Shown here in pieces: positions 15,097 to 23,832 of a stretch of 34,692 bases of DNA; the stretch's first letter is position 1, and each line of letters starts with the position of its first letter. The DNA is from Chloroflexota bacterium (GTDB lineage Bacteria; Chloroflexota; Dormibacteria; Aeolococcales; Aeolococcaceae), in contig VBJV01000022.1 of NCBI GenBank assembly GCA_005879785.1, forward strand, positions 65,749 through 100,440. The letters run 5' to 3'. A model generated the notes under the pieces. It did no database searches, was not told where the DNA came from, and worked only from the letters and a program-made list of their open reading frames with translations. The position numbers and the translations under genes were made by a program.

Positions 15097-16354
15097 GTGA
15101 TGCGCCTTCTCATCGTCGGCGGCGGAGGGCGGGAGCACGCGCTCGCCTGGGCATGCCGGCGCGAGCGCACCGACATCGAGGTCATCTGCGCGCCTGGCAA
15201 CGGGGGAACGGCAGTCATCGCGGAGAACGTCACGATCGACGTCACCGACGCGCGCACCATCGCGCGAATCGCGGCCGAGCGTGAGGTCGACCTCGTCGTC
15301 GTCGGGCCCGATGCCGCGGTCGCGGCGGGTGTCGCGGATGCGTGCGCCGCGCGGAACATCCCGGCCTTCGGGCCGACCGCCGCCGCCGGCCGCATCGAAT
15401 CCTCGAAATCGTTCGGCAAAGTCCTGATGGACGAGGCCGGCATACCGACCGCACGCTGGTTGAGCGGCACCGCCGATCAGCGCGACGCGCTGCTCGCCTT
15501 CGCCGAGGATCTCGGCGGCGCATGCGCTGTGAAGGCAGACGGCCTGGCTCTCGGCAAGGGCGTGGTCATGTGCGAAACGCTCGACGACGTGCACGGGGCG
15601 CTGCGCGCCTGCTTCGACACCGCGCGTTTCGGCGCTGCGGGCAGCCGCGTGGTCGTCGAGGAACAGCTCACGGGTACGGAGGCATCGGTGCTGGCACTGA
15701 GCGACGGTCACCGGCTGCGCCTGCTGACGCCCGCCCGCGACTACAAGCGCGCGCTCGACGGAGACGGGCGCATGCGCGCCGCCGCCCGACATCGACGCAC
15801 ACGGTCTGACCGACCAGGCAGCGCGCAAGGTGCTGCAGCCGTGCGTCGACGCGCTGCGCGCCCGCGGCACGCCCTTCGTCGGGTGCCTGTACGCAGGACT
15901 CATGCTCACCGGCGATGGCATCCGTGTGCTGGAGTTCAACGCCCGGTTCGGTGACCCGGAGGCGCAGGTGGTGCTGCCGCTGCTCGACGAACCGCTGGCG
16001 GAGGTGCTCCGCGACTGCGCGCGCGGCGAGGTCGCGCCGGGAGTGGCCGTCACGTCCGGCGCCGCCGTCGGCGTGGTGGCCGCTGCGGCTGGATATCCTG
16101 GCGAGGTGCGCATCGGCGACCGCATCGAGGGCCTGGACACGATCGACGCGCGCGCTCTCTGCTTTCATGCCGGCACGCGTCGCGCACCCGACGGGACGGT
16201 GCGCACATCCGGTGGCCGCGTGCTCTGCGTCGTGGCGCGCGCTCCGCAGCTCGAAGAGGCGCGCTCGGCCGCGTACGAGAACGTCGCGCGCATCACCTTC
16301 GCCGGCATGCAGCGGCGCGGCGACATCGCGCAGCGGGTCGGAGTCACTGCGTGA
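15097..16354 (+). pseudogene. purD: Phosphoribosylamine-glycine ligase, reading frame disrupted near 15775
   Basis: Frame 1: MRLLIVGGGGREHALAW...ARDYKRALDGDG; frame 2 continues GACAPPPDIDAHGLTDQAARKVLQPCVDALRARGTPFVGCLYAGLMLTGDGIRVLEFNARFGDPEAQ. The RGPNTGGM motif normally between them is absent. Confidence 0.9.
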
Positions 16355-16860
16355 GCGCAGCGCTTCTCGTGGGCATCGTGGTCGGCAGCGAGTCTGACCT
16401 GCCCGCGATGCGACGCTGTGGCGAGGTGCTCGACGAGTACGGCATCGGCTGGGAGATGGGTGTGATGTCGGCGCATCGCGCGCCCGACGTCGTGAGTGGG
16501 TATGCACGTGCGGCGCGGTCGCGCGGCCTGCGCGTGCTCGTGGCCGGCGCCGGCGCGGCCGCGCACCTGCCCGGGGTCCTGGCCTCCATGACGACACTGC
16601 CGGTGATCGGGGTGCCCCTGGCCGCAACCCCGCTGGCCGGCCTCGACGCGCTGCTCAGCATCGTGCAGATGCCGCCCGGCACACCGGTGGCCACCGTGGC
16701 GGTGGGCGAGATGGGGGCGCGCAACGCCGGCCATCTGGCGGCCCAGATCGTGGCCCTCGACGACGCCGACGTGGAAGGGGCGCTCGGCCGGGTTCGCGCG
16801 CGCATGCGTGAAAGCGTCCAGTTGCCCGAGGGATTCGACCCCTCCGGAGCCGGCGACTAG
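16351..16860 (+). CDS. purE: N5-carboxyaminoimidazole ribonucleotide mutase (PurE)
   Basis: GIVVGSESDLPAMRRCGEVLDEYGI, SAHRAPD, AGAGAAAHLPGVLASMTTLPVIGVPL, LDALLSIVQMPPGTPVATVAVG. GTGA overlap with purD. Confidence 0.93.
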   Translation: MSAALLVGIVVGSESDLPAMRRCGEVLDEYGIGWEMGVMSAHRAPDVVSGYARAARSRGLRVLVAGAGAAAHLPGVLASMTTLPVIGVPLAATPLAGLDALLSIVQMPPGTPVATVAVGEMGARNAGHLAAQIVALDDADVEGALGRVRARMRESVQLPEGFDPSGAGD

Positions 16861-16904: not shown

Positions 16905-18698
16905 ATGCCTCGCCTCGAACTGGTGGAGACGTCGCTCCGCCTCGGGCAGCAGTCGCTCCTGATCAGCCGTCTGCGCCAGCGGCACGCTGTGCCGGTCGCC
17001 GAGCGCCTCGACCGCTGCGGATTCGCCGCGCTCGACGTCTTCGGCGGCTCGACGTTCGAGGCCTCCCTGCGCTTTCTGGCTGAGGACCCCTTCGAGCGGC
17101 TGCGCGCGATCCGCGCCGCGGCTCCGATCACGCCGCTGCTCGCCATGATCGGCGGGCAGGCGCTCGTCGGTCACCGCCACGTCTCCGACGACACCGTCGA
17201 CGCCTTCATCGCCGCCGCAGCCGAAGCGGGCGTGGACATCTTCCGCTGTTACGACCCCCTCAACGACACCCGCAACCTGGAGCGCTGCGCAGAGGCGGTG
17301 GCGCGCGCCGGCAAACAGGCCGAAGGAGTCATCGTCTACAACGACGCCGCGGACGGTGACATCCTGGTCGCCGCCGCGCGGCGGCTGGTCGAGATCGGAT
17401 TTCCGACGCTGTGCGTGCACGACCCCCTCGGTGTCCTGGTGGCCAGCCGCGCCGCCGAGACCGTGAGTGCAGTGCGTGCGGCTGCCGGCGTGCCGGTGGC
17501 GATATCGATCGCTGCGCAGACCGGACAGGCGACGCTGGCGGCGTACAGCGCGGCTCTGGCCGGGGCTCACCGCATCGACGTGGCGCTGTCGCCGCTGGCG
17601 GGTGGCGCGTCGGTACCCGCAGCCGAAGCGGTCATCGCCGGCTTCGCAGGAAGCCCGGTCGACCCGGGCCTCGATATCGAGCCCATCGCAGCAGCCGCGC
17701 TGGAGCTGGAGCAGGCGCTCGTGCACTACGCGGACGTGCTCGACCCACTGGCGCTGCGGCTCGACACCTCGGCGCTGCGTGGTCTGCTGCCGCCCTCCGC
17801 GATGGGGCACGCCCTGGCCGAGCTGCGCGCCCGCGACGCGCTTGCGAAGCTGGGCGAGGTCGAGGCTGAGGTGGTACGCGTCCGGGCCGAGCTTGGCTCG
17901 CCGCCTATGGTCACCCCGCTCACCGAGATCATCGCCACCCAGGCTGTCTACAACGTCTGCAACGGCGATCGCTACGCGACGGTGAGCCAGGAGGTGAAGG
18001 ATTACTGCCTCGGCCTGTACGGCGAGCCGCCGAAGCCGGTCGATCCTGAGATCCGGCGGCTGGTCAACGGCCGCGAGGAGCCGATCACCTGCAGGCCCGC
18101 CGATCTCCTGGAGCGATCCATCGCCGCGACGCGGCGCGAGCTCAAACGTGAGGGCCTGGCCGATGCGGCCGCGGCTGCCGTGGTCACGTACGCGCTGTTC
18201 CCAGCCGAATACCTCGCGCTCGTGCGCGGCGAGAGCGCCGCGGAGCAGCTCGGCGATGAGGCCGTTCCCCAGGGTGAAGCGCCCGTGGGCGTTCCCGAGA
18301 CCGCGATCGTCGACGAGCCTGCGGTGGCGCCAACTGTTGACGGCGCCGAGCCGGCCGTGGCCGCGCGCGAGCTCACCGTTGAGGTCGACGGCCAGTCGTA
18401 CGCGGTGCGGGTCATCGGGCTGCCCGAGGCGAGCGGTGCGAGCGGGGTGGCCGCCGCCATGCCCGCCGGGCCGCCCCCGGTGCGCGAAGGTACGGTGGTC
18501 GCTCCGATGCAGGGCTTGCTGCTCAAGGTTTCTGTCAAAGTTGGCGACAAGGTGAACCTGGGGGACGTGGTGGCGGTCCTCGAGGCGATGAAGATGCAGA
18601 ACGACATCACCGCTACCCGTTCGGGAACGGTCACCGAGGTATACGTGAAGGCCGGCGACGTGGTCAGCCCCCGCGATCCGCTTGTGCACGTCGGATAG
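16905..18698 (+). CDS. OadA/PycB-like carboxyltransferase-domain protein with C-terminal biotinyl domain; predicted catalytic metal site lost
   Basis: Family-level match over HMGL-like, PYC_OADA and biotinyl domains (EDPFERLRAIR, PLTEIIATQAVYNVCNGDRYATVSQEVKDY, EPITCRPADLLE, VLEAMKMQNDI), but active-site residues replaced (see findings). Confidence 0.88.
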   Translation: MPRLELVETSLRLGQQSLLISRLRQRHAVPVAERLDRCGFAALDVFGGSTFEASLRFLAEDPFERLRAIRAAAPITPLLAMIGGQALVGHRHVSDDTVDAFIAAAAEAGVDIFRCYDPLNDTRNLERCAEAVARAGKQAEGVIVYNDAADGDILVAAARRLVEIGFPTLCVHDPLGVLVASRAAETVSAVRAAAGVPVAISIAAQTGQATLAAYSAALAGAHRIDVALSPLAGGASVPAAEAVIAGFAGSPVDPGLDIEPIAAAALELEQALVHYADVLDPLALRLDTSALRGLLPPSAMGHALAELRARDALAKLGEVEAEVVRVRAELGSPPMVTPLTEIIATQAVYNVCNGDRYATVSQEVKDYCLGLYGEPPKPVDPEIRRLVNGREEPITCRPADLLERSIAATRRELKREGLADAAAAAVVTYALFPAEYLALVRGESAAEQLGDEAVPQGEAPVGVPETAIVDEPAVAPTVDGAEPAVAARELTVEVDGQSYAVRVIGLPEASGASGVAAAMPAGPPPVREGTVVAPMQGLLLKVSVKVGDKVNLGDVVAVLEAMKMQNDITATRSGTVTEVYVKAGDVVSPRDPLVHVG

Positions 18699-18708
18699 CA
18701 CGGCCGCG

Positions 18709-20151
18709 ATGTTCGACACGGTGCTCGTGGCCAATCGCGGCGAGATCGCGCTGCGCGTGGTCCGCGGATGCCGCGACCTGGGCGTCCGCAGCGTCGCCGC
18801 GTACAGCGAGGCCGACCGCGACGCTGCGTTCGTGCGGCTGGCCGACGAGTCCGTCGAGATCGGTCCGGCGCCGTCGTCACAGTCCTACCTGGTGGCAGAG
18901 CGCATCATCGACGCGGCGCAGCGAACCGGAGCGCAGGCGATCCACCCGGGCTACGGGTTCCTGAGCGAGAACCAATCGTTCGCGCACGCATGCCGCTCGG
19001 CAGGCATCGTGTTCATCGGGCCGCCGCCCGAGGCGATGGCGGCGATGGGCGAGAAGGTGGCTGCCCGCGAGCGCATGCGGCGATCCGGAGTGCCCGTCGT
19101 CCCCGGCACGGATGCGCTGAGCGGCGCTGACGAGGCAGTGGCCGCCGCGAACGACGTCGGCTATCCGGTGCTGATCAAGGCGAGCGCGGGCGGCGGTGGC
19201 ATCGGCATGCGGATCGCGCGTGACGAGCGCGAGCTGCGAGAGGGTTTCGAGACGGCGCGAAGCACAGCGGCGCGAGCCTTCGGCAACGACACCATCTTCC
19301 TGGAGCGCTACGTCGACGAGCCCCGTCACATCGAGATCCAGGTGCTCGCCGACACGCACGGCGCCGTGATCCATCTGGGCGAACGCGAATGCTCCGTGCA
19401 GCGGCGGCATCAGAAGATCATCGAGGAGACGCCGTCGCCGGTCATCGACGCCGAACAGCGGCAGCGCATGGGTGAGGCGGCGGTGACCGCGGCGCGGGCG
19501 GTCGGCTACGTCAACGCTGGCACCGTCGAGTTCATCTACAGCCGGGGCGAGTTCTTCTTCCTGGAGATGAACACCCGCCTGCAGGTCGAGCACCCGGTGA
19601 CCGAGCTCGTGTACGGCGTCGACCTCGTCGCCGAGCAGCTGCGCATCGCCGCGGGCGAGCCGTTGAGCCTCACCCAGGATGCGATATCGCCGCGTGGGCA
19701 TGCCATCGAGTGCCGTGTCAACGCCGAGAACTACGCGAAGGGGTTCCTTCCGTCGCCGGGGCGGGTCACCGGCTACCACGAGCCGTCCGGTCCGGGGGTG
19801 CGCGTGGACAGCGCGCTGACCGGACCTGGCGTGATCTCGCCGCACTACGACCCGCTGGTGGCCAAGCTCATCGTGCACGGCGAGTCGCGTGCTGCCGCCA
19901 TCGAACGCATGCGGCGTGCGCTGCTCGAGTACATCGTCGTGGGCATCCGCACCAACATTCCGTACCACCTCGCCGTGATGTCCGACACGGACTTCCGCGC
20001 CGGCAGCTACACGACGCATTTCATCGACGAGCATCCGCAGCTGGTCGCGGACGCCGACGCATGGGCGGAGCGGCAGGCGGCGCTGCGAAGCCTCGTGCGC
20101 GACCCGGCACGGGCCGCGGCGATCGCGGCCGCGGTTGCCGTGTCCGTGTAG
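18709..20151 (+). CDS. Biotin carboxylase subunit (AccC/PycA-type)
   Basis: VLVANRGEIALRVVRGCRDLG, HPGYGFLSEN, KASAGGGGIGMRI, ERYVDEPRHIEIQVLAD, FFFLEMNTRLQVEHPVTE. Confidence 0.94.
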   Translation: MFDTVLVANRGEIALRVVRGCRDLGVRSVAAYSEADRDAAFVRLADESVEIGPAPSSQSYLVAERIIDAAQRTGAQAIHPGYGFLSENQSFAHACRSAGIVFIGPPPEAMAAMGEKVAARERMRRSGVPVVPGTDALSGADEAVAAANDVGYPVLIKASAGGGGIGMRIARDERELREGFETARSTAARAFGNDTIFLERYVDEPRHIEIQVLADTHGAVIHLGERECSVQRRHQKIIEETPSPVIDAEQRQRMGEAAVTAARAVGYVNAGTVEFIYSRGEFFFLEMNTRLQVEHPVTELVYGVDLVAEQLRIAAGEPLSLTQDAISPRGHAIECRVNAENYAKGFLPSPGRVTGYHEPSGPGVRVDSALTGPGVISPHYDPLVAKLIVHGESRAAAIERMRRALLEYIVVGIRTNIPYHLAVMSDTDFRAGSYTTHFIDEHPQLVADADAWAERQAALRSLVRDPARAAAIAAAVAVSV

Positions 20152-20926: not shown

Positions 20927-21021
20927 GCTCGAAAGACGGTGATGAGACCGACGAAGACAGTCACGCCGACTTCTACTTCGAAGGGGGCGAGCGCCGCTGG
21001 CGTTGGCCCCCCCCGACCTGA
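20923..21021 (+). CDS. Putative 32-aa acidic small ORF
   Basis: GTG start overlaps the methyltransferase stop (GTGA): VSSKDGDETDEDSHADFYFEGGERRWRWPPPT*. Below the ORF-track length cut-off. Confidence 0.35.
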   Translation: MSSKDGDETDEDSHADFYFEGGERRWRWPPPT

Positions 21022-21034
21022 GAGGCGTAGGCGC

Positions 21035-23269
21035 CTAGAAGGCGACGGTGGCCGAGAAGGCCGCGGCGAGCGCCTGCCCGTCGATGTCGCGCAGCGCGGT
21101 GCTCACCGCGACCCGCAGCGGTCCGGCCGGCAACGAGGCAAGCGTGACCGTGGCGGTGCGCGAGCTGGTGTCGTATGTCGTGGATATGGGGGTGGCGACA
21201 CCGGACGCGGATGTCACGCTGATGGCGCCGGGAACGCTGCTCGCGTCGAGGTCGCTGTCGAAGCTGATCTGCAGCGTGAAGGCGCCGGTGGCGCTGCTGC
21301 TCACGCGCACGACGTGCGGCCCCGACGACTGGTCGTGCAGCGACGTCGTGTCGATGTCGACCACGAGGTACGTGGACCCGTCGGTCGAGGGCGACAGCGC
21401 GAGCCGCTCATCGGCGACCGACGCGGTGCTGTGATGCCCGGTTGGGTCGACGATCAGCTCGACGGTGGCATTCACCGTGCCGTCCGACGATGCCGAGACG
21501 CTCACGATGTACGCGCGGCTGAGGCGGTGCGGCGCGCGCGCCGAGGCGTCGACGCCGGGGCCGCTGAGCGCGGTCAGCGCCTTGCGGTCGCCACGGACCT
21601 GCGCATCGACGAACGCGTCGAGCGTGGAGCTCGCCGCGGCCGGGGCAGCCAAGCGCGCCGCCGCACTCGACCCGGGGATCATGCCCCGCTCGACCTGGGC
21701 CCCCGACGGCGTGGAGGCGATGAAACCGAAACCGCCGCCGGACGGCGCGAAGGCTGGAGCGCTTCCCGCCGGGCTCACCGCCAGGGGGGCGCCCGAAGGC
21801 AGCTGGGCAACGACCAGCTGCGCCGCGCCCGTCGATGCGGAGAGCACGTACGCAACCTCAGTGCCGTCGACGTTGAGCGCCACGTCACTGGTGGGCGCGC
21901 TCGGGTCGAGCGTCGACACGCTCGCGGGCGTGTCCCGGTCGACGGGCTCGGTGACCAGGCGGGATCCAGCGCCGCCGGCGTCGATCCACGCAACCGTGCG
22001 TCCGTCGGCGCTGAACGCCACGCCGCCGGCGGTAACGCCGCTCAGCAGCCGGCTGGTGCCTGCAGCGATGTTCAGCAGCTGTCCCCCGCCGGTCGACCCC
22101 GGGGCCGCCACGAACGCGTAGCCGCTGCTGGACAGCGCATCGACCTCACCCGATGCGGTCGGCAGGGTCAGCAGGATTCGCTGGTGGCCGGAAAGCTGGA
22201 CCGACTTGATGGCGTCGCCGTCGGCGAAGATCAGCCGCTCGTTCGACGTCCACGCCAGTGCCGTGACCGTGGTGGCGGCCTGCCCCAGCACGGTCGTGCC
22301 GCCGCCGTTCGACGCCGCCACCTCGATGAGCGAGCCACCGTCGGGGTTGGGAACCGCCATGGCCAGGAGGCTCCCTGCCGGCGCGAAGGCGAGCGCTGTG
22401 GCGGAGGGCCCGCGTACAACGGGCGCACCGCCGCCGGCCGGGAAGTCGATGACCGCGGGAATGCTGACGCCGAGCTGGCCGGCGGCGGCCGGCGACGCGC
22501 TCGGGCTGCTCGGCCGAGGCGGCGGCGACGCCTCGACGGTGGCGGCAGGCAGCAGCCCCGACGAGACCGCGACCGCGCCGTCGGGCGCCACCACGACCGA
22601 CGCGCCGGTCTCCGCTGAGCCGAGCGCTGCCGCGGCCAGTCGCGGCGGGATCGGAGTGCTCGGGCCCGGTGGTGGCGTGGGCGCGGTGCCGAAGGTGATC
22701 TGGATCGGCGCGGCGGCGGTGGCGCCCGACGACGCGCGGATGGAGGGCTGGGCGATGGTCACCGTGTACGGGGTGTTACCGACGAGATGGTGGACCGGCG
22801 TGATGACCAGCTTGTTGCCCCGCCACGAGTAGTTGACCGTGGTGGCCGGCTGGATGTGAACGCCCTTCTCGACAGCCTGGTGGTTCATGGGCTGGTTGAA
22901 CGCCACGGTGATCACATCGGCTGGGCTGACCGCGTGCTGCGCGGCGACGTTGGAGCTGGCAAAGAGGTTCTGGTGGTCCTGGGTGTGGCCGAACAGCAGC
23001 GAAACCACGGCGGCTGCGACGGCCACGACACCGACCGCAGCGCCGCTCCATGCTGCGTGGGCCGGGCCCACGCGCCACCAGGCCCGGCGCCGGCGCAGGG
23101 ACCGCTCGGCCTCGGCCATGAGATGACCGCGCAGCTGGTGACGGAAGTGCGGGTCAGCCTCCGCCAGCGGCCGCGAGGTGTGCAGCAGCCGCGCCGTGTC
23201 GGCGAGCTCGGGCTGATCGCGGAAGAGGTCCTCGAGCTCCGGGTCGAGCCAGCCGTCGAGGCGTGGCAT
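21035..23269 (-). CDS. Putative anti-sigma / membrane-anchored extracytoplasmic protein with SbsA-type Ig-like (Big_5) and beta-propeller-like regions
   Basis: ATG at 23269 overlaps the sigma-factor stop (ATGA). N-terminal cytoplasmic segment, one TM (AAVGVVAVAAAVVSLLFG), then DVITVAFNQPMNHQAVEKGVHIQP...YTVTI and repeated propeller-like segments. Confidence 0.75.
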   Translation of the reverse strand: MPRLDGWLDPELEDLFRDQPELADTARLLHTSRPLAEADPHFRHQLRGHLMAEAERSLRRRRAWWRVGPAHAAWSGAAVGVVAVAAAVVSLLFGHTQDHQNLFASSNVAAQHAVSPADVITVAFNQPMNHQAVEKGVHIQPATTVNYSWRGNKLVITPVHHLVGNTPYTVTIAQPSIRASSGATAAAPIQITFGTAPTPPPGPSTPIPPRLAAAALGSAETGASVVVAPDGAVAVSSGLLPAATVEASPPPRPSSPSASPAAAGQLGVSIPAVIDFPAGGGAPVVRGPSATALAFAPAGSLLAMAVPNPDGGSLIEVAASNGGGTTVLGQAATTVTALAWTSNERLIFADGDAIKSVQLSGHQRILLTLPTASGEVDALSSSGYAFVAAPGSTGGGQLLNIAAGTSRLLSGVTAGGVAFSADGRTVAWIDAGGAGSRLVTEPVDRDTPASVSTLDPSAPTSDVALNVDGTEVAYVLSASTGAAQLVVAQLPSGAPLAVSPAGSAPAFAPSGGGFGFIASTPSGAQVERGMIPGSSAAARLAAPAAASSTLDAFVDAQVRGDRKALTALSGPGVDASARAPHRLSRAYIVSVSASSDGTVNATVELIVDPTGHHSTASVADERLALSPSTDGSTYLVVDIDTTSLHDQSSGPHVVRVSSSATGAFTLQISFDSDLDASSVPGAISVTSASGVATPISTTYDTSSRTATVTLASLPAGPLRVAVSTALRDIDGQALAAAFSATVAF

Positions 23270-23832
23270 CAGGCCTCCTCCTCGACGAGGGTCACGATGC
23301 CCAGACGCTGGCGCACGCCGATCATGCCGCGGTGGATGAGCAGCTTCACTGCCCCTTCGCTCTTGCCCATGATCCGGCCGATCTGCGCCAGCTTGAGGTC
23401 CTCGCCGAGCTTGAGGGTCATCGCCATGCGCTGCTGCGGCGGCAGCGAGTCGATCGCCGCCCACACTCGCTCGGCCTCCGAGCTGTCGACCACCCGTTCG
23501 ACCACCGGGCGTGCCGGGTCGGCGACGCCCACGGCGCCGTCGAGGCTCGACGTCGGCCGGCGGCTGCGGTAGTGGTCATAGATCGCATTCACGCTTATCT
23601 GATACAGCCACGCGCTGAAAGGATGGCCCGACGACCGGTACCGGCCGATGGCGCGCAGCGCTTTGAAGAACACCTCAGACGTGACGTCCTCGGCGGCGTC
23701 CTGGTCGCGCACGCGGCTATACACAAACCGGTAGATTTGAGAGAAATAGTGGTCGTAGAGCTCTCCGAATGCATCGGCGTCCGACTTGGCACGCTCGACA
23801 AGCTGTTCTTCGTACGCCCGAGGCAGGCTCAT
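23269..23832 (-). CDS. ECF-type RNA polymerase sigma factor
   Basis: DAFGELYDHYFSQIYRFVYSRVRDQDAAEDVTSEVFFKALRAI (sigma2), LPPQQRMAMTLKLGEDLKLAQIGRIMGKSEGAVKLLIHRG (sigma4). Confidence 0.92.
   Translation of the reverse strand: MSLPRAYEEQLVERAKSDADAFGELYDHYFSQIYRFVYSRVRDQDAAEDVTSEVFFKALRAIGRYRSSGHPFSAWLYQISVNAIYDHYRSRRPTSSLDGAVGVADPARPVVERVVDSSEAERVWAAIDSLPPQQRMAMTLKLGEDLKLAQIGRIMGKSEGAVKLLIHRGMIGVRQRLGIVTLVEEEA

Follow-up and report, generated by a model that had tools for sequence, protein, structure and literature searches.

Comparisons with solved enzymes and with relatives indicated that the 597-aa protein encoded at positions 16905-18698 of the window (the whole 34,692-nucleotide stretch of DNA that was analyzed) is a real, conserved pseudo-carboxyltransferase (pseudo-CT). 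In the reading that we favored, and regarded as probable, this PycB-like protein has lost pyruvate carboxylation and has been kept as a biotin carrier and structural partner of a usually single biotin carboxylase (BC), serving acyl-CoA carboxyltransferases of the AccA/AccD and PccB types. A preliminary description of this DNA had offered a scaffold or biotin carboxyl carrier protein (BCCP) as one of several options for the protein, and it was the option best supported by our analysis, by way of genomes that have a sole BC and a sole biotinyl protein.

The open reading frame (ORF) on the + strand was open and uninterrupted, and matches to the HMGL-like, PYC_OADA, and Biotin_lipoyl domains were found in its product. 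Thus, the single unbroken ORF, the preserved EAMKMQ biotin site (at K563), and the catalytic motifs of the neighboring BC (11 of 11 checked residues intact) were all as the preliminary description had stated them. The genes and domains were as follows.

16351-16860, + strand: purE, directly upstream of the pseudo-CT gene (profile match; context only)
16905-18698, + strand: pseudo-carboxyltransferase/biotin carrier protein, PycB-like, 597 aa (domain matches, alignment)
16905-17774, + strand: CT TIM-barrel domain, residues 1-290 (domain match; fold intact in the AlphaFold2 model)
17775-18239, + strand: PYC_OADA conserved carboxylase domain, residues 291-445 (domain match, AlphaFold2 model)
18363-18416, + strand: conserved hairpin of two strands, residues 487-504, flanked by low-confidence linkers; a candidate for a BT-like element that contacts the BC
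18480-18695, + strand: biotinyl carrier domain, residues 526-597 (domain match, alignment)
18591-18593, + strand: biotin-accepting Lys563 of EAMKMQ (predicted biotin site)
18709-20151, + strand: AccC/PycA-like biotin carboxylase with intact catalytic residues (the reading frame is open from 18682, and its first ATG is at 18709)

A chain with CT, PYC_OADA, and biotinyl domains next to a BC gene is the architecture of PycB from two-subunit pyruvate carboxylase (PC). The best PDB match in both sequence and fold searches was PycB of Methylobacillus flagellatus (5ks8), which also has CT, PYC_OADA, and BCCP in one chain and a separate, adjacent BC gene; unlike 5ks8, the pseudo-CT was without all four metal ligands and the pyruvate-binding Arg. 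The protein passed the NCBIfam PycB domain cut-off (PRK09282, 481 versus 402 bits) and missed the equivalog cut-offs for OadA (TIGR01108, 440 versus 756.5 bits) and AccB (TIGR00531, 43.5 versus 115.2 bits). Although it had a CT fold like that of OadA (2nx9), it differed from OadA in missing that cut-off and in adjoining a BC; oxaloacetate decarboxylase is not known to use a BC. By sequence, the pseudo-CT is not a member of the AccB family, but it may work in an AccB-like way, and it carried the intact biotinyl domain with EAMKM that goes with the AccB role. We searched the window's genome for a second PycB and found none.

To locate the active-site residues, we aligned the 597-aa protein to 5ks8, 2nx9, 5S, and Staphylococcus aureus PC. 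In the Rhizobium etli enzyme, the metal-site Asp and carbamylated Lys are D549 and K718. The positions were as follows.

16941-16943, + strand: codon 13, Leu in place of the metal-ligand Asp (R. etli D549) (alignment)
17151-17153, + strand: codon 83, Gly in place of the pyruvate-binding Arg (alignment)
17418-17420, + strand: codon 172, His in place of the carbamylated Lys (R. etli K718) (alignment)
17505-17507, + strand: codon 201, Ser in place of the first metal His (alignment)
17511-17513, + strand: codon 203, Ala in place of the second metal His (alignment)
17913-17915, + strand: codon 337, the catalytic Thr, kept in a VTP motif (counterpart of R. etli T882) (alignment, 164-residue offset)

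The PycB metal site (Asp, carbamylated Lys, His, and His) was absent from the protein, which had L, H, S, and A instead, and G83 took the place of the pyruvate-binding Arg of two-subunit PC. These five columns were invariant (Asp, Arg, Lys, His, and His) in 47 canonical relatives. The preliminary description had read the same changes from motifs (metal-ligand Asp to Leu, substrate Arg to Gly, carbamylated Lys to His, and the metal His pair to Ser and Ala) and had proposed an alignment to the CT domains of PC and OadA; an alignment of this kind, to S. aureus PC, 5ks8, and 2nx9, upheld all five losses, at L13, G83, H172, S201, and A203. It had also placed the catalytic Thr in the GGASVP segment and counted it as lost, which was wrong. 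In Lactococcus lactis PC, the pyruvate-binding Arg is R606, the carboxylysine is residue 703, and the catalytic Thr is T867 (PMC9581989). The Thr thus lies 164 residues past the carbamylated Lys, as it does in R. etli PC (K718 and T882), and the same offset counted in S. aureus PC leads to the T of VTPSSK, which aligned to T337 in the retained VTP motif. The GGASVP column already had Ala in 15 of the 47 canonical relatives.

Scans of the genome contigs and of the phylum yielded 96 distinct, near-full-length relatives. By the state of the site, 47 were D-R-K-H-H, 13 had only a Lys-to-Glu change, one had a Lys-to-Ala change (L083), and 35 were eroded. All 35 eroded rows formed a single clade of Dormibacterota (SH-aLRT 99), and the eroded state was common to independent genomes from different sites. 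The search for orthologs with eroded sites beside a BC, which had been suggested as a check, therefore returned a whole clade, and the substitutions were not unique to the window's sequence. In one part of the clade, the Arg and the first of the two metal His residues were still present (HRYHA, HRFHA, or QRFHA); in the other part, which includes the window, all five ligand and pyruvate residues were gone. Because one eroded subgroup still has two of the residues, the site looks to have been lost in steps within the clade. The former ligand columns were diverse in the clade, with H, Q, L, S, A, Y, or W in the Asp column and H, Y, F, Q, R, or L in the carbamylated-Lys column. The five metal/pyruvate columns belonged to the most variable ones, with a mean entropy of 1.83 bits versus 0.75 bits in the other formerly fixed columns (P = 0.00075 in a permutation test that ignores phylogeny).

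The rest of the protein was under constraint. Specifically, 54 of the 116 canonically fixed columns remained so (≥90%) among the eroded rows, the biotin site was invariant across the clade, and the dN/dS of the CT domain was 0.03 to 0.21 in 12 eroded pairs versus 0.01 to 0.05 in six other pairs. The AlphaFold2 model of the pseudo-CT had a mean pLDDT of 88.8, and it superimposed on the CT of Vibrio cholerae OadA (2nx9) with a TM score of 0.95 (target length) and a root mean square deviation of 1.5 Å over 448 columns; the TM score to 5S was 0.90. The structure prediction that the preliminary description had called for thus gave an intact CT fold, and its view that the protein did not look like decay was borne out by this fold, the clade-wide state, and the purifying selection. 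A decaying gene or an assembly artefact might be suspected in a draft metagenome-assembled genome (MAG) in which the neighboring purD is frameshifted, but the single clade, the independent genomes of different sites, and dN/dS values well below 1 made this extremely improbable. For the clade as a whole, decay or artefact was refuted by dN/dS and clade-wide conservation.

In the pocket, R12, Q16, and T337 were kept, and a Thr or Ser was retained at the catalytic Thr position in 35 of 36 rows. The eroded clade had newly fixed residues close to the pocket motifs, namely Q15 and P174, and E341 and Q208 were mostly fixed there. The kept residues, together with Q15, P174, and largely E341, count against a pure scaffold, as this conservation is more than a pure scaffold needs. 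These residues raise the idea that the protein is still a carboxyltransferase, acting on another acceptor without a metal, with the carboxybiotin side (R12, Q16, and T337) kept and the pyruvate/metal side rebuilt. The clade-specific residues, the retained Thr or Ser, and the low dN/dS over the entire CT domain would fit such an enzyme. However, the five former ligand columns varied within the clade, which is unlike a conserved new site, and no linked substrate gene was common to all members, with the purine link missing in some. Judging from these patterns, we thought a new acceptor unlikely, though worth keeping in mind. Slightly less likely still was a combined arrangement, in which the pocket would have been rebuilt as a metal-free CT or carboxybiotin-dependent ligand site, with an acceptor possibly linked to the purine operon in those lineages where the operon persists, in a protein that is also a general carrier.

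The case for a carrier and structural partner came from the distribution of biotin-dependent components. Among the 58 Dormibacteria genomes in which a BC was detected, 55 had just one, and this sole BC adjoined the CT gene wherever both were on one contig. Acyl-CoA carboxyltransferases were present in all 61 Dormibacteria genomes (accA/accD and pccB were checked in examples). In three genomes of the sister family, f2 (G119, G158, and G188), and in one of the window's family, f1 (G063), the other biotin/lipoyl domains were all of the lipoyl type (TDK or TEK), so the pseudo-CT was the only biotinyl protein found there. A search with the pseudo-CT (P0001) as the query revealed no second biotinyl protein in G135, G173, G176, G185, or G190, and the same search was sensitive enough to detect a 96-aa carrier in G004. 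Neither a BC nor a carrier was found near the loci of these genomes that encode AccD zinc-finger and AccA proteins or PccB.

No other carrier or BC was found in the f2 genomes and G063, but this did not apply to many f1 members or to the window's draft genome. Many f1 members had a small ESMKM carrier besides the pseudo-CT, often beside a PccB-type CT, and a 4.4-kb contig in the window's genome bin (L231, G000:C236:1-1200), possibly native and possibly a contaminant, encoded part of a second BC, one that is fused to a BCCP. All of the genomes were draft MAGs; those used were 84 to 98% complete, and the window's own was 75% complete. Because of the ESMKM carriers and the second BC-BCCP, the sole-carrier argument was strongest for the relatives, and it would reach the window only by homology.

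Given one BC, a sole biotinyl protein, and AccA/AccD and PccB loci that lack partners, the most economical reading was that acyl-CoA carboxyltransferases receive their carboxybiotin from the pair. In the proposed mechanism, the BC would carboxylate biotin on Lys563 of the pseudo-CT, and the carrier would then deliver this carboxyl group to carboxyltransferases of the AccA/AccD and PccB types. These acyl-CoA carboxyltransferases are separate proteins that lack a dedicated BC and, in some relatives, any other carrier. The dead CT dimer would be a structural scaffold for the BC. We infer both the transfer in trans and the scaffolding. In two-subunit PC, the isolated BC subunit is reported to be a monomer that forms a stable dimer only in the holoenzyme (PMC5059739); by analogy, BC dimerization may be a reason to retain a dead CT. 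The role proposed here is that of AccB or of the fused BC-BCCP of Chloroflexus aurantiacus acetyl-CoA carboxylase (ACC) (PMC11077971), a carrier between BC and separate CT-alpha and CT-beta. Instead of being a short AccB or a BC-BCCP chain, however, this carrier has a dead pyruvate-type CT attached to it. In a search with most subscription journals outside its reach, we found no literature on a link between PC and Dormibacterota and no precedent for a pseudo-carboxyltransferase, and the part of the literature on related systems that it covered made no mention of a PycB-type carrier serving ACC. In actinobacterial acyl-CoA carboxylase alpha subunits of the AccA3 type, one BC/carrier serves several carboxyltransferases. 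Unlike the pair described here, these have BC and BCCP in one chain without a pyruvate-type CT.

The gene order in the window was GuaB3, GuaA, PurD, PurE, pseudo-CT, BC, and then PurB, PurC, PurQ, PurL, and PurF. The order PurD-PurE-CT-BC...PurB-PurC was repeated across the class, including lineages with an intact metal site. In the window, purD (15097-16354) was split by a frameshift, with the N-terminal part at 15097-15954 and the C-terminal part starting at 15830 in another frame; purD was one frame in relatives, and the frameshift is either a sequencing error or a real mutation. We also observed two ORFs without a Pfam or NCBIfam match 3' of the BC gene (20939-22618 and 22787-23572), the second of which was syntenic in many relatives.

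This context suggested that the BC and pseudo-CT might replace PurK, by supplying CO2 or by N5-carboxylating AIR for the adjacent PurE. The BC is a relative of PurK among the ATP-grasp enzymes, purE adjoined the pair in most purine-making f1, f3, and f4 members, and purK was absent from all three families. Furthermore, purK was found in 10 of 10 f2 genomes, adjoining purE away from the CT-BC operon (e.g., L236 G119:C53 and L237 G188:C208), and that operon contained no purE in f2. However, f2 kept the pair despite having PurK, and the pair was also kept in G004 (98% complete), G063, and G190 (L228, L229, and L127), which lacked PurC, PurE, and PurK and are probably purine auxotrophs. The pair was thus not confined to genomes with PurE and without PurK. 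Moreover, class I-like PurE without PurK occurs elsewhere and has been explained by CO2 supply (PMC3261824). The purine-pathway-less relatives and f2 ruled out PurK replacement as the main role, and we gave this explanation very little weight. The purine link raised in the preliminary description was therefore real as gene order, with purK missing, but purine synthesis is not the function of the pair.

It was just as improbable that the protein is still a PC, either with replacement ligands for the metal or working without one. The domain order, the neighboring BC, and the PycB profile match are those of a PC, and PEP carboxylase was absent from most f2 and several f1 genomes. On the other hand, the pyruvate-binding Arg and four metal ligands were gone with no conserved replacement, and most of the PEP carboxylase-less genomes that were checked had PEPCK-family proteins, an alternative route to oxaloacetate. 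PEP carboxylase in some genomes, or a PEPCK-family protein in most, could provide oxaloacetate. In G004 (1.5 Mb), neither PEP carboxylase nor ATP-type PEPCK was found.

Changes at the PC site were also seen outside the eroded clade. The Lys-to-Glu rows (L054, L056, L067, L068, L070 to L073, L076, L077, L080, L098, and L100; GIEDVAG) formed a separate sister clade that retained the Asp and both His residues, with a carboxylate side chain replacing the Lys-carbamate; long branches (L069 and L083) were placed insecurely. In the L083/L103 lineage, the carbamylated Lys was changed to Ala, and the Asp and both His residues were kept. The catalytic Thr column was Ala in 13 of 13 Lys-to-Glu rows and in 26 rows with an intact metal site (e.g., L035 and L058) that were labeled f4 type from the motif blocks of representatives. 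Loci of the f4 type such as L035 and L058 had Arg at the biotin-contact Ser position. PC activity in the intact-metal f4-type sequences is doubtful. Because of the Thr-to-Ala change outside the eroded clade, a complete PC site appears to be present in no Dormibacteria sequence of this set, which would fit a history in which pyruvate carboxylation was lost in parallel across the class and the biotin carrier was kept.

If the carrier and scaffold reading is true, a dead PC subunit is the biotin arm for fatty acid and acyl-CoA carboxylation, and the single BC that drives acyl-CoA carboxylation has its gene in a purine operon. In Dormibacterota, a lineage of soil bacteria, the labels "pyruvate carboxylase" and OadA mislead, and models of anaplerosis in this lineage should not presume PC. 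The series of site states (metal site intact, Lys changed to Glu, partial loss, and full loss) makes the transition from a CT to a scaffold directly testable.
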